Assembly (NCBI GenBank): GCA_009838915.1
Contig: VXQT01000036.1
Coordinates: 64,323-128,322 of the forward strand
Length of the DNA stretch: 64,000 bases
Direction of reading: 5' to 3'
Source of the DNA: Chloroflexota bacterium
Lineage (GTDB): Bacteria; Chloroflexota; Dehalococcoidia; Bin125
Part shown: positions 19,433 to 25,300 of the stretch, piece by piece
Layout of the letters: each line of letters begins with the position of its first letter
Numbering within the stretch: the first letter of the stretch is position 1
Made by a program: the position numbers and the translations under genes
Notes under the pieces: generated by a model
The model's input: only the letters and a program-made list of their open reading frames with translations
Told to the model about the DNA's origin: nothing
Database searches by the model: none

Positions 19433-19625
19433 ATGGCAGACACGACGGCGCAACGCTGGATGCGCCTGATGGGCGGCCAGGGTCGGCCCACCGCCCGTCC
19501 GCCGAGCGACGCCGACGTCGCCGACAACGTGGCCCGCTATCCCGAACGCGCCGCACAGGCGCTGGTCGACCAGTCGCGCGCGCTAGGACAGGCCGCCTCG
19601 GCACGCCAGGCTCGGGGCTGGATTA
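19433..19625 (+). pseudogene. 5' part of small gene split by the transposon
   Basis: Starts with ATG after AAGAAGGACCAC and encodes 64 codons (MADTTAQRWMRLMGGQG... ending QARGWI) before the IS1595 element begins at 19626. Joining it to the 3' part at 22200 through the duplicated CTGGATTA restores one frame of 103 residues, reading ARGWITGQLNE across the junction. I recognise no family. The whole is alanine/arginine-rich and probably helical. As sequenced, the frame would run on into the element for another 150 codons. Confidence 0.8.
19618..19625. repeat. Target site duplication, left copy
   Basis: CTGGATTA, identical to 22193-22200. Eight-bp duplications are characteristic of the IS1595 family. 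Confidence 0.95.
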
Positions 19626-19648
19626 GGGGATTATATCGGATAGTGCCC
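19626..19648 (+). repeat. IS1595 left terminal inverted repeat
   Basis: Begins GGGGATTATATCGGATAG and ends TGCCC. It matches the reverse complement of 22170-22192 at 23 of 23 positions. Its inner 9 bp, ATAGTGCCC, recur twice in the internal palindrome at 21010-21042. Confidence 0.96.
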
Positions 19649-19654
19649 GCGCCA

Positions 19655-21024
19655 TCAGGTCAGGGCCAGCCTTTTGAGCCGCGCTACCAAGTACTCCTGC
19701 GGGCGATCCCCCTTCACGCGGTTACAGTGTCCGCAGAGCAGTTGGAGATTGTCGATGTGGTCCGAACCGCCGCGCGCCTGTGGGATCACGTGGTCAACCT
19801 CGAAGTGGCGGAATTCGAACGGCGACGCGCAGCCTGCACAACGGCCTTCCTGCTCGCCGAACAGCACGTGCTTGTTCTGCCGGTAGTTCCTCGGAGCCTC
19901 AATGTCGTCTCGCCTCGGGATGTCGTCTCGCGTGGTGACGAATCCGTGGTGAAACAGATCTCCGATGGTCTGCTGCAGGCGGACGTTGACCAGTTCGGCG
20001 GCCTTCGGCGAGATATCGATCCCGACCCAATCGCGGTCCAGCAACTCGGCCGAGACGCACGCCGTCGCGCAGCCACAGAATGGATCGAGCACTAGATCGC
20101 CGGGATCGCTGCTCGCTTCGATGATCCGATCCAATAGGGCGAGCGGTTTCTGTGTCGGGTAGCCGACGCGCTCTTTGGCCTGCGAGTTGATCGGCGAGAT
20201 ATCATCCCAGACCGATTGCGCAGGCCTGCCGTCCAGTTCGTCGAGATAGCGCTTGCGACGGATTCCGCCGTTGCGAGTGAAATGCAGATAGCCATCGTCG
20301 TCGAGTTGCCGCATCGTCTCCAGGGGCACGCGCCACAATGAGCGGCAGCCGCGATACTCGTATTCGTACCCCCCCCCGATAGGCCCTTCGCGGTCAGATT
20401 GTCGTCGGACCACTTGCGACCGTCCGCATCGGATCGCTTGAATCGAGCGAGATAGCGGGCATCGTAGGGCTGATAGGGCTGATTCCAGGTCCACGACTCA
20501 CCCGCTGTGTAGAACAGAATCTGATCATCTACACGCCCGTATCGGCTGGCGTCGCTGTGGGCGGTCGTGCGCTTCCAGGTAATCGAGTTCTGAAACTGCC
20601 TGCGTCCAAAGATCGCGTCCATAAGCGTCTTGAGATAGGCGCTGGCGAACGAGTCGCAGTGCAAGTAGATCGAACCAGTCGGTTTGAGCAGGCGTTTCAT
20701 CTCCAGCAGGCGCACGGCCATCATCGTCAGATAGGACTGCATGCCCTTCGAGTGCGTCCGGCCAGCGGTGTCCAGCAGGTAGGCGATGGCGGGCTGTTCG
20801 TCGGCGATCAGACCCATCCACGCCACGTCAAGATCGTCCAGTGTCCAGGTGTCTTTGAACGCGGCGCCGGCGGCCTGTGAGCCAACAGGCGCGGCATAAT
20901 CCCGATTCGAGTTGAACGGCGGATCGGCGTAGATCAGGTCCACGGTCTCCGAATTCATGCCGCGCATGATGTCCAGGTTGTCGCCCGTCCACAGCGTCCG
21001 ACTAGCGAAGTTGGGCACTATCAT
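19655..21024 (-). CDS. Beta-class DNA methyltransferase fused to HNH nuclease, frame-broken at a G9 tract
   Basis: Transposon passenger of about 456 residues once one frame shift is corrected. The N-terminal piece (21024 to about 20378) has TLWTGDNLDIM and the catalytic motif IV YADPPFNSNRDY, then LLEMKRLLKPTGSIYLHCD. The downstream piece has SVWDDISPI, YPTQKPLALLDRIIEAS and AdoMet motif I DLVLDPFCGCATACVSAE. The order IV-then-I marks the beta class (N6-adenine or N4-cytosine), like type III Mod enzymes. The C-terminus, after about residue 385, is an HNH domain: CAGCASPFEFRHFEVDHVIPQ, then NLQLLCGHCNRVKGD. The break lies in a run of nine G (20369-20377 on this strand); ten G, or seven, would join the frames. 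The ATG sits in the loop of the palindrome shared with the transposase promoter region. It may be phase-variable, decayed or a base-count error. Confidence 0.88.
20369..20377 (-). repeat. G9 homopolymer inside the methyltransferase frame
   Basis: Nine consecutive G on the coding strand, giving S-G-G-G-T in the upstream frame. With one more G the frame continues as S-G-G-G-Y-E-Y-E into the HNH-containing half. Such tracts are slippage-prone. Confidence 0.85.
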
Positions 21025-21042
21025 GGTAGAATAGTGCCCAAC
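21010..21042. promoter_or_regulatory. Perfect palindrome between divergent passenger and transposase genes
   Basis: GTTGGGCACTAT (21010-21021) and ATAGTGCCCAAC (21031-21042) are exact inverse complements around a 9-nt spacer that contains the methyltransferase ATG (21022-21024). The inner ATAGTGCCC of each arm equals the inner 9 bp of both transposon ends, so a protein that binds the ends, most simply the transposase, could also bind here and repress both genes. Operator role is inference. Confidence 0.7.
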
Positions 21043-21056
21043 GGGGAGAGAGACAG

Positions 21057-21995
21057 ATGACCACCGCACACGCTCCAGGACAGTCCTACCGAACCGGCAT
21101 CAGCCTGATCGAGCTGTTCCGCATGTTCCCCGACGACGCGACCGCCGAGGCGTTCTTCGCAGCGGAGCGTTGGCCTGATGGCCCTGAGTGCCCCTACTGC
21201 AAGTCGGACAACGTGCAGAGCGGAGCGAAGCACAAGACGATGCCGTTCCGCTGCCGCGCCTGCCGCAAGCGGTTCAGCGTCAAGACTGGGACGGTCATGG
21301 AAGCGTCGAACGTCGGCTGCCAGAAGTGGGCCCTGGCCGCGTTCCTGCTGACCACGTCGCTCAAGGGCGTATCGAGCATGAAGCTGCATCGGGACTTGCA
21401 GGTATCGCAGAAGACGGCCTGGTTCATGGCGCACCGCATTCGCCAGGCGTGGATCAACGACGGCGGCCTGTTCGATGGTCCGGTCGAGGCGGACGAGACG
21501 TTCATCGGCGGACTGGAAGGCAACAAGCACGCGGCGGACAAGCTGCACGCCGGTCGCGGTCCAGTGGGCAAGACGGCGGTTGTGGGGATCAAGGATCGCG
21601 AGACGGGCAAAGTCGCTGCGCAGGTCGTGTCGGGAACGGACGCGGCGAGCCTGGTTCCGTTCATCACCGACCGCACGGACGTTGAAGCGACGGTGTACAC
21701 GGACGAGCATGGCGCGTACCGGTCGCTCCCGCGTCGTCACGAGACGGTCGCGCACTCCGTCGGCGAGTACGTCAACGGGCAAGCGCACACGAACGGGATC
21801 GAGTCGTTCTGGTCGATGTTGAAGCGTGGCTATCACGGGACCTACCACCAGATGTCGCGCAAGCACCTGGATCGCTACGTGACAGAGTTCGCCGGTCGCC
21901 ACAATCAGCGACCGATGGACACCATCGATCAGCTCCGAGATGTCGTGCGCGGGATGGTCGGGAAGCGGTTGCGCTACTCGGACTTGATCGGCTGA
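21057..21995 (+). CDS. IS1595-family transposase
   Basis: A 312-residue transposase. Residues about 42-76 form the N-terminal zinc ribbon typical of the family (CPYCKSDN, then CRACRKRFSVKTGTVME). The DDE_Tnp_IS1595 (ISXO2-like) catalytic domain follows: VEADETFIGG with the first Asp, VYTDEHGAY with the second, and HTNGIESFWSMLKRGYHGTYHQMS, the Asn/Glu region of this DDNK/DDEK family, then HLDRYVTEFAGRHN. It catalyses cut-and-paste movement generating 8-bp duplications, matching the ends seen here. All motifs are intact. Ribosome-binding site GGGGAGAGAG lies 6 bp before the ATG. Confidence 0.96.
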   Translation: MTTAHAPGQSYRTGISLIELFRMFPDDATAEAFFAAERWPDGPECPYCKSDNVQSGAKHKTMPFRCRACRKRFSVKTGTVMEASNVGCQKWALAAFLLTTSLKGVSSMKLHRDLQVSQKTAWFMAHRIRQAWINDGGLFDGPVEADETFIGGLEGNKHAADKLHAGRGPVGKTAVVGIKDRETGKVAAQVVSGTDAASLVPFITDRTDVEATVYTDEHGAYRSLPRRHETVAHSVGEYVNGQAHTNGIESFWSMLKRGYHGTYHQMSRKHLDRYVTEFAGRHNQRPMDTIDQLRDVVRGMVGKRLRYSDLIG

Positions 21996-22084
21996 GGCTT
22001 CTTCTTCTCGCCTCGATTGCTCAGCATCGCCTTGATCACGGTCTTGGTCGGCGCGGGAATCCGCAGGTCCTTCGGGGTCGGCAT
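21974..22084 (-). CDS. Possible 36-residue basic peptide in the transposon
   Basis: An ATG-to-TAG frame on the minus strand (MPTPKDLRIPAPTKTVIKAM...) rich in Lys/Pro, overlapping the last 22 bp of the transposase antisense. It lies between the transposase and the right end, where IS1595 elements have little spare DNA. It may be a real passenger or chance. No family recognised. Confidence 0.3.
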   Translation of the reverse strand: MPTPKDLRIPAPTKTVIKAMLSNRGEKKKPQPIKSE

Positions 22085-22104
22085 CAGAGGTGGTCCGATC
22101 GCTG

Positions 22105-22123
22105 TGGCGGTGTAACACCGCCA
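22105..22123. terminator. Hairpin downstream of the transposase
   Basis: TGGCGGTG-TAA-CACCGCCA, a perfect 8-bp stem, 110 bp after the transposase stop and inside the right end of the element. There is no T-run after it, so it is a poor intrinsic terminator; it could protect ileS from read-through or be a structural element. Confidence 0.4.
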
Positions 22124-22169
22124 AGATAGCAGTGATGTCACGAATCGTTGACATCGGCGCGGGTCAGGT

Positions 22170-22192
22170 GGGCACTATCCGATATAATCCCC
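22170..22192 (-). repeat. IS1595 right terminal inverted repeat
   Basis: Reads GGGCACTATCCGATATAA then TCCCC on the + strand, the exact inverse of the left end. Confidence 0.96.
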
Positions 22193-22200
22193 CTGGATTA
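22193..22200. repeat. Target site duplication, right copy
   Basis: CTGGATTA, identical to 19618-19625. Confidence 0.95.
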
Positions 22201-22319
22201 CGGGGCAGCTCAACGAAGCTGCCGACTTGCTCGACCAAGCGACTCGCGACCGCATTGGCCAACTGGCCGACGCGCAGATCGCGCAACGATTCCCTGAGGA
22301 CTCATCCAACGATGGCTGA
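22200..22319 (+). pseudogene. 3' part of small gene split by the transposon
   Basis: In frame with the 5' part after removal of the element and one duplication copy. It encodes TGQLNEAADLLDQATRDR, then IGQLADAQIAQRFPEDS, and ends SNDG-TGA at 22319. The stop overlaps the ileS start by 8 bp, so the intact gene was probably translationally coupled to ileS. Function unknown. Confidence 0.8.
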
Positions 22320-25300
22320 CACCGCTACCGAAGCCGTAAGTTCCGAACCTGACTCTTCCACCTCTTCCGCACGCGATCTGACCTTCCGACCGGTCGGGAC
22401 AATGATGCCCCACCGCGAGCTCGAAGACGAAATTCGCCGGTTCTGGCGCGAGCGTGACATCTTCCGTCGAACGGTCGATGAGCGTCCCGCCGACGACGTC
22501 TATTCGTTCTACGAGGGTCCGCCCACGGCCAACGGCACACCCGGCGTGCACCACGTGCTCTCGCGCGTGTTCAAGGACCTCTTCCCGCGCTACCAGACGA
22601 TGCGCGGCAAGCGCGTCCCGCGCAAAGGCGGCTGGGACACGCACGGCCTGCCGGTCGAGATCGAGGTCGAAAAGACGCTCGGTCTGGACAGCAAGCCGGC
22701 GATCGAGGAGTACGGCATCGCCGAGTTCAACCGGCACTGCCGCGAGTCGGTGATGCAGTACGTCCAGCAATGGGAGGACATGACGGAGCGGGTCGCGTTC
22801 TGGATCGACATGTCCGACGCCTACCGTACTTACACGCCCGAGTACGTCGAATCCTGCTGGTGGATCTTCAAGACGCTGTGGGACGCCGGACTGATCTACG
22901 AGGCCCGCCGCACGACGCCGCACTGTCCGCGCTGCGAATCGTCGCTCTCCAGCCACGAACTCTCGCAGGGCATGCAGGACGGCGTCCGCGATCAGGCGGT
23001 GACCGTGCGCTTCCGCGCCCACAACGACTCGCTGCCCGAGAGTCTGCGGAGCGAGGGCACTACCGATTTCCTTGCCTGGACGACCACGCCGTGGACCCTG
23101 CCGGCCAACTCCGGCCTGGCATTGAACGCAAACGAGTCCTACGCGCTGGTGGAGATCGCCCCCGGTGAGCGGCTGATCCTGGCTCGAGAGCTCGTCGGCG
23201 CGGCGCTCGACGGAGTGGTCGATCAGGCGACTGTGATTGGAACGGTGCAGGGCGCGGAGCTGGTCGGTGTGACATACGACGGCCTGTACGAGCCCGATCA
23301 ATGGGGCGTACCGATGTACCGCTTCGACGGCGCTCGGTTGGTCGAGTGGACCGAGGCGGACGGTCGGTTGCCGGCGCGATCCGTCGCGGCGGGCGACTTC
23401 GTGGAAATGGAGAGCGGGACCGGCATCGTCCATATCGCTCCGGCGTTCGGCGAGGACGACTATCAACTCGGCCGCGAGGTCGGGCTACTGTTTCGCCAGC
23501 CGGTGGACCTCTCCGGGCGGATCGTCGGTAATGCCGACGATCCGGCCGCTCCGGCGTTCGTGGGCAAGTGGGTCAAGGACGCCGACCCGATAGTCATGGA
23601 CGACCTCGAGGCACGCGGCCTGTTGCTGCGCAAGGACATCTACGAGCACACCTATCCCTACTGCTGGCGCTGCGACACGCCGCTGCTCTACTACGCCAAA
23701 CCGAGCTGGTACATCGCCACATCGCAGGCCAAGGATTCGCTCACCAGCTCCAATGCGGAGCTGATCCACTGGCATCCTGAGCACACCGGCACGGGACGAT
23801 ACGGCGACTGGCTGGCCAACAATGTCGATTGGGCCGTGAGCCGCGAACGCTACTGGGGTACGCCGCTGCCGTTCTGGCGCTGCACCGAGTGCGGCGATGT
23901 CTCTTGCGTCGGTTCGTTCGACGAGCTGCGCGAGCGGGCCAGGGCGTTCAGCGGCGTTGAGCCGGACCTCTCTGATCCGCACCGCCCGTACGTCGACGAG
24001 ATTGAGATCGGCTGCGACAAGTGCCCTGGCGCTGCCCGTCGATGTCCGGAAGTCGCCGACGCCTGGTTCGACTCCGGCGCCATGCCTTACGCACAGTGGC
24101 ATTACCCGTTCGAGAACCAGGATCGCTTCGACGAGCGGTTCCCCGCCGACTTCATCTGCGAAGCCGTCGACCAGACTCGCGGCTGGTTCTACTCACTGCA
24201 CGCCGAGGCCGCAATGCTGCACCGCGCCGAGGCGGTGCCCGAACCGATCTCGTTCCGCAACGTGATCTCGTTGGGCCACATCCTCGATGAGGCGGGCGAG
24301 AAGATGTCCAAGTCGAAGGGCAACGTCGTCGATCCGTGGGAGGTGCTCGACCAGAGCGGCGCCGACGCCTTGCGCTGGTACTGCTACGTCGCTTCACCGG
24401 CAGGCAACCCTCGGCGGTTTTCGCCTCGTCTCGTGAGCGAGGCGCAACGCCGATTCCTGCACACGCTGTGGAACACGTACTCGTTCTTCATCACTTACGC
24501 CAACATCGACGGCTGGCGTCCGACCGAGCGGACGGGCGCGCTGACGGTCGAACTCGACCGCTGGATCCTGAGCGAACTGCACAGCCTGATTGGCCGCGTC
24601 ACCGAGGCGTTGGACGACTACGACCCGACGACGGCGGCGCGCGAGATCGACGGATTCGTCGACTCGCTCTCCAACTGGTATGTGCGGCGCAGCCGGCGGC
24701 GCTTCTGGTCGTCGGCGCGCGGCGGGGCGGCCGCCGACCTCGGAGCCAAGCAGAGCGCCTACCTGACGCTCTACGAAGTGCTGACCACGCTGGCGCGGCT
24801 GCTCGCGCCAATGACGCCGTACCTGTCCGAGGAGATGTGGCGCAATCTCGTCGCCGAGTTGGATGCGAATGCGCCGGAGTCCGTACACCTGGCTCGCTGG
24901 CCCGAGGTCGACGCGTCGCTGATCGACGAGCCGCTGAACCAGGACATGGCGCTGGTACAGCGTGTCGCGTCGCTGGGCCGTGCGGCGCGCAGCGCGGCAG
25001 GACTCAAGGTTCGTCAGCCGCTGGCGGCGGTCTCGGTCGCCGTCCGCAGCGCTCGCGACGCCGATGCCGTGCAGCGACTTCGCAACACGATCGCCGAGGA
25101 GTTGAACGTGAAGTCGGTGACGCTCGCCGACGCGGCGTCCGATTCCCGGCGCTACACGATCAAGCCGAATTTGCGGACGCTGGGCCCGCGAATCGGTCCG
25201 AAGCTGCCGGCCCTGCGAGCCGCGCTGAGCGATCTGCCGCCGGAGCTGACCTCGCACATCGCACAAGCCGCCGAGTCGGGTCAGACTGTCGAGGTCGAAG

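Follow-up and report, generated by a model that had tools for sequence, protein, structure and literature searches.

A nine-guanine tract at the frame break of a transposon-borne methyltransferase-HNH gene: a likely slippage switch in a Chloroflexota bacterium

A DNA methyltransferase gene with a fused HNH nuclease domain, carried by an IS1595-family transposon in a Chloroflexota bacterium, is broken between two reading frames exactly at a run of nine guanines (G9). This tract is likely a slippage (contingency) switch in the single-chain methyltransferase-HNH (MTase-HNH) gene, here turned OFF by one G. Related genes have out-of-frame tracts recurrently, the three possible frames are represented at random among the tracts, and one genome has copies of a related element that are otherwise identical but differ in tract length.

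The complete transposon lies at positions 19626-22192 of the window, that is, the whole stretch of 64,000 nt that was analysed, and contains the MTase-HNH gene (Table 1). It meets the criteria for the IS1595 family: the transposase scores above the curated cut-off for NF033547 (180.8 bits vs 75), and there are terminal inverted repeats and an 8-bp target duplication. A target duplication of 8 bp is the norm in this family. Apart from the element's own repeats, no further copy was found in its own genome (2.87 Mb, 38 contigs), where it is single-copy. In 393 genomes of the class, no nearer copy of the window MTase was found above 78% identity. The terminal inverted repeat sequence had no match in viral contigs, and no relatives of the MTase family were confirmed in viral contigs. 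Searches of phage DNA gave just partial matches of 66-75% to methylases of Streptomyces and Mycobacterium phages.

Two further observations concern the surroundings of these genes. The transposon is inserted in a small host ORF (19433-19625 and 22193-22322) directly upstream of an isoleucyl-tRNA-synthetase-like gene; when read across one copy of the target duplication, this ORF is one open frame (by eye, ...ARGWI-TGQLNEAADLLDQATRDRIGQLADAQIAQRFPEDSSNDG, then a stop). A palindrome, GTTGGGCACTAT...ATAGTGCCCAAC, at 21010-21042 spans the MTase start codon and contains a further copy of the terminal repeat's inner part (ATAGTGCCC). It is possible that this palindrome is an operator or a transposase site between both divergent genes.

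Table 1. Features of the transposon and of its MTase-HNH gene, in window positions.
Feature	Position	Strand	Remarks
Left 8-bp target-site duplication, CTGGATTA	19618..19625	.	
Left terminal inverted repeat, GGGGATTATATCGGATAGTGCCC	19626..19648	+	23 bp, perfect inverted match to 22170-22192
Downstream half of MTase-HNH gene (ORF2, tract to stop 19655)	19655..20377	-	frame offset by one base
HNH nuclease domain, ORF2 residues 219-264	19703..19840	-	Pfam PF01844, E=3.6e-15
C-terminal MTase part with motif I (DLVLDPFCGCATA)	19988..20251	-	PF01555 profile positions 132-219, E=5.9e-22
MTase upstream frame (ORF1), ATG 21024 to stop 20092	20092..21024	-	PF01555 profile positions 1-147
G9 tract (C9 on + strand)	20369..20377	-	exact frame-break point, codon 216-219 (Ser-Gly-Gly-Gly)
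Motif IV, DPPF	20914..20925	-	translation from ATG 21024
IS1595-family transposase, 312 aa, intact, divergent from MTase	21057..21995	+	NF033547, PF12762, PF12760
Right terminal inverted repeat	22170..22192	-	
Right 8-bp target-site duplication, CTGGATTA	22193..22200	.	

The N6_N4_Mtase domain (Pfam) is split over two frames, with DPPF in ORF1 and DPFCGC in ORF2. The criteria for an N6_N4 DNA methyltransferase (PF01555 with DPPF and DPFxG) are met, and the domain is unsplit in relatives (L017). In comparisons with PADLOC and the PDB, the MTase part grouped with type II methyltransferases such as RsrI, MboIIA and CcrM. The HNH domain gave weak matches to the HNH of Cas9, of IscB and of a group II intron maturase. 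Both domains are on one chain; methylation and cleavage are inferred from the domains. As assembled, ORF1 continues for 95 codons beyond the tract, and a 310-aa OFF product is predicted. By frame arithmetic, G10 would join both halves of the gene. The frame-setting repeat tract expected of an SSR phase-variable gene is present, as the G9 at the exact frame break. A preliminary description, made from the sequence alone, had given the coordinates of the tract, the split of the domains and the one-base frame offset, and all of these held. Its proposal that the tract is a candidate phase-variable switch is supported through the tracts of relatives; variation of the window tract itself is inferred, without reads.

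The G9 is the sole G/C run of 8 or more bases in the window. Dinucleotide shuffling of the window gave at least one run of nine in 31 of 100 cases, so that a G9 alone is no surprise at this base composition. What stands out is that it coincides exactly with the frame break, and we therefore compared relatives. At the tract site, intact relatives encode three glycines and then Y-x-Y (GGGYxY) without a G run. L111 reads AKGLTGGGYEYEY and L033 reads GLSGGGYDYEY there, and the run-less sequences at the site are GGGGGAGGC in L111, GGTGGCGGC in L033 and GGAGGCGGA in L034. Compared with this GGGYxY reading, the window gene lacks one G, and its tract is out of register by a single base. The distant relative L004 has a G9 at the same protein site with the same one-base deficit.

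One scan of GTDB species genomes yielded 78 loci with relatives of the MTase. When additional genomes from the genus, the family and the class were included, there were 137 distinct genes (at least 900 bp), some of them relatives aligned over the MTase domain alone. Most of the 137 are a single open frame. The queries were trimmed to remove broken calls caused by the off-frame N-terminus of L016. This N-terminus had been considered as a further upstream gene and was dropped, as it looked like an off-frame translation of a transposase.

A G/C run of at least 8 bases in the gene or in its 90-bp leader was detected in 16 of the 137 relatives. The runs were located after the start codon (L040, L051, L052, L053), at DAIF-GGG-xFRNE (L017, L032, L295, L296), between motifs IV and I, where the sequence is variable (the window gene, L004, L022, L023, L037, L101), or early in the gene (L073, L120). 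Eleven of these 16 genes were out of frame at the run (OFF), eight through an internal frame break at the run and three through a start codon out of the body frame, whereas 6 of the 121 run-less genes were broken (Fisher 8e-9). With start-site tracts omitted, the numbers were 8/16 vs 6/121 (p=1e-5).

Runs of at least 8 bases occurred at 8.0 per 100 kb in the gene vs 1.4 in the flanks (binomial p=1e-4). The genes with body runs of at least 8, 9 and 10 bases numbered 12, 8 and 5, against 5.9, 1.8 and 0.5 expected from synonymous-codon shuffles; 1%, 0 and 0 of 300 shuffles, respectively, were as extreme. For genes with enough flank, an IS1595 transposase was found within 1.2 kb of 12 of 15 run genes vs 13 of 71 run-less genes (Fisher 9e-6). 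The run statistics were not corrected for relatedness among genes. The tests of enrichment and association used the 137-gene set alone; nine tract genes added to it afterwards are a biased sample, from genomes already known to hold tracts. As a separate observation, a G22 lies about 430 bp upstream of the MTase relative L026 (2584; OY282385.1), apparently within an IS1595-like transposase frame.

The frame states of the tract genes were close to equally distributed. The first 16 split into 5 in frame, 6 short and 5 long. With the nine added genes, each from a genome with a known tract gene, the 25 tract genes comprised 8 in frame (ON), 8 that lack one base and 9 with an extra base. In this tally, the C7 copies of the record OX638335.1, described below, were counted once, and L375 was omitted for its uncertain start codon. 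Such a split is expected if the length of the tract follows a random walk.

Programmed -1 ribosomal frameshifting, or transcriptional slippage, could in principle give some full-length protein from the G9. In support of this explanation, the upstream frame reads TCG GGG GGG GGT, and a -1 shift joins both frames. However, programmed frameshifting would work in a single direction, and the out-of-frame relatives need opposite shifts about equally (8 vs 9). The intact relatives L111, L033 and L034, moreover, have no slippery run at the site. The explanation is all but excluded, and we rejected it as the main mechanism because +1 and -1 shifts are needed equally often, although leaky low-level bypass is not excluded.

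Copies of one element within a single genome provide a direct comparison of tract length. The chromosome-level record OX638335.1 (uncultured Gammaproteobacteria), which we take to be built from accurate long reads on the basis of its naming, has three copies of a related 2532-bp element with an IS1595-type transposase and an MTase-HNH gene, each copy with its own 8-bp duplication. The copies are identical across the element save one position, a C run right after the start codon. This run is C8 in L051 (in frame, ON) and C7 in L054 and L055 (out of frame, OFF). In a Rhodothermales MAG, L028 has an in-frame C7 and L073 an out-of-frame C8 at the same place; these two have 87% identity over 427 bp, and other bases beside the run also differ.

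The nearest copy of the window element, L101 from a same-genus genome, has a transposase 99% identical to that of the window. Its MTase is broken at a C8 homopolymer in a different place from the window G9. Tract length between close copies differs for the OX638335.1 element (C8/C7/C7), and the nearest copy of the window element uses another tract. As a check on the switch, the preliminary description had proposed to compare how long the tract is in further transposon copies; the comparison was run and supports the switch. Two other same-genus genomes carry related IS1595 elements with the same ends and no MTase (L105, L106). The existence of these same-ended copies implies that the MTase passenger is optional.

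The main alternative given in the preliminary description was a base-count error in assembly. With such an error of assembly or base calling, the true tract would be in frame and the gene always ON. A miscount at the window tract cannot be excluded without reads, and contigs of the same genome end in long G/C runs and noise (dark-base G calls, or breaks at real G runs). The alternative thus remains possible, in an assembly visibly troubled around long G runs, but we consider it very unlikely. The window tract is internal to its contig. Tracts that are out of frame were met again in MAGs from more than one set, and they are too long about as often as too short, where a systematic collapse in assembly would lean to one side. 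Finally, the three copies in the chromosome-level record differ at the tract alone.

Other G/C runs were seen in the source genome. Many contig ends and N-gaps are at runs of G12 to G54 followed by noise (L183, L184, L189-L193, L195, L201, L206, L208-L216). These might be real long G runs that break the assembly or dark-base artefacts, and base counts near them may be unreliable. An initial idea, that genuine poly-G contingency loci abound in this genome, was not used as evidence because much of the signal was at contig ends or beside N gaps. Another DNA methylase of this genome (PF02384; L181, 1248, G000:C21:25447) has an in-frame G10/C10 run between its motifs. An MMPL-type transporter (L205, 1225, G000:C17:75224) is split exactly at a G8, and its same-genus relatives are run-less and align one base shorter. 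A protein with a PPDK_N domain (PF01326; L194, 1303, G000:C36:1303), whose C-terminal part is long and rich in repeats, is split at a C8. Two predicted secreted proteins (L187, 1283, and L197, 1239) have G/C runs of 10 bases, in frame, that lie within or beside the signal peptide.

A third explanation is neutral decay. A useless passenger would break first at its most slippery site, and the tract would be a mutational hot spot and not a selected switch. An unselected slipping tract would likewise give 1:1:1 frames. Six run-less relatives are also broken, and in the tract gene L372 the body frame too ends early. The G8 in the MMPL transporter breaks its frame, so G runs arise and break genes outside the MTase family. 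Against decay, no second frameshift was seen in the out-of-frame tract genes, L372 excepted, and one third of the tract genes are in frame. Long tracts occur at many different sites, above the codon-based expectation.

Also against decay, the downstream halves evolve no faster than the upstream halves in the window gene and in most pairs. The dN/dS values behind and before the break were about 0.23 and 0.24 for the window gene vs L005, and 0.29 vs 0.27 for the window gene vs L017. The dS was near saturation in these comparisons, which makes the argument from selection a weak one where recent events are concerned. According to the preliminary description, a fixed G9 with further inactivating mutations would refute the switch. 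This was not seen: neither half of the window gene is truncated, and dN/dS is the same for both. We consider neutral decay unlikely.

We retain the slippage switch as the preferred reading. Replication slippage would gain or lose Gs in the tract. An in-frame tract length, G10 here, would give the full MTase-HNH protein (ON). With G9, translation would stop at about 310 aa, and the product would lack both motif I and the HNH domain (OFF). The OFF state would remove the SAM-binding motif I and the nuclease together, and we infer that cleavage without protection may be avoided in this way. Reversible slipping of the window tract is inferred, as we have no reads. Methylation and/or cutting by the ON protein is likewise inferred from untested enzyme domains, as would be any restriction or regulatory effect, including the change in expression of many genes that defines a phasevarion.

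The hosts of the 78 loci from the GTDB scan include MAGs assigned to Chloroflexota, Binatota, Poribacteria, Acidobacteriota-type bins, and Alpha-, Gamma- and Deltaproteobacteria, and further to Acidimicrobiaceae, Rhodothermales and one Nitrosopumilaceae archaeon. In the source class, the named relatives are from Dehalococcoidia/Chloroflexota MAGs. Judging from bin names, we take several of the relatives' MAGs to come from sponge metagenomes, and the source bacterium is likely sponge-dwelling. A bolder reading, toward which we lean only slightly, is that these transposons carry a self-contained, phase-variable MTase-nuclease from one sponge symbiont to another, across several phyla of bacteria and into an archaeon. 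Switches made of homopolymers would then arise repeatedly at different sites of the gene, with each insertion able to toggle its own modification/cutting activity independently.

Methyltransferases switched by slippage have been known chiefly from pathogens adapted to a host. In the present case such a switch appears on a mobile element in uncultured bacteria and has apparently arisen repeatedly, and most relatives are from sponge-associated assemblies. A mobile element with its own on/off gene for methylation or nuclease activity could alter phage resistance, gene exchange and expression cell by cell. The many sites in many hosts are natural replicate switches for testing why tracts evolve. 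An MTase that is out of frame in a metagenome assembly should not be counted as a pseudogene on that ground alone.

In the literature that we searched, with most subscription journals outside its scope, we found no phase variation in sponge symbionts and no IS1595 element with an MTase-HNH passenger. Slippage-switched methyltransferases are known, but we found no report of a transposon-borne MTase-HNH version across sponge-symbiont phyla.

Phase-variable methyltransferases controlled by SSRs (phasevarions) are well established, and phase-variable type I and type III systems have been described (PMC11868660). As in the phase-variable Mod/RM genes, the frame of the MTase gene is set by the length of a repeat in the coding sequence, with about one third of the lengths ON (PMC11868660). 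Unlike them, the window gene is in an IS1595-family transposon, its nuclease is fused on the same chain, and tract positions vary among relatives. IS1595 elements with passenger genes are also known (transporter IS, tIS; Siguier et al. 2009, cited in PMC3129680 and PMC5704250). The window element resembles a tIS in its IS1595 transposase, perfect terminal inverted repeats, 8-bp duplication and extra passenger gene, but what it carries as passenger is an MTase-HNH gene that contains a homopolymer tract. With RsrI, MboIIA and CcrM, in which motif IV precedes motif I, the window gene shares PF01555, the same motif order and sequence matches to solved methylases; it differs from them in its extra C-terminal HNH domain.
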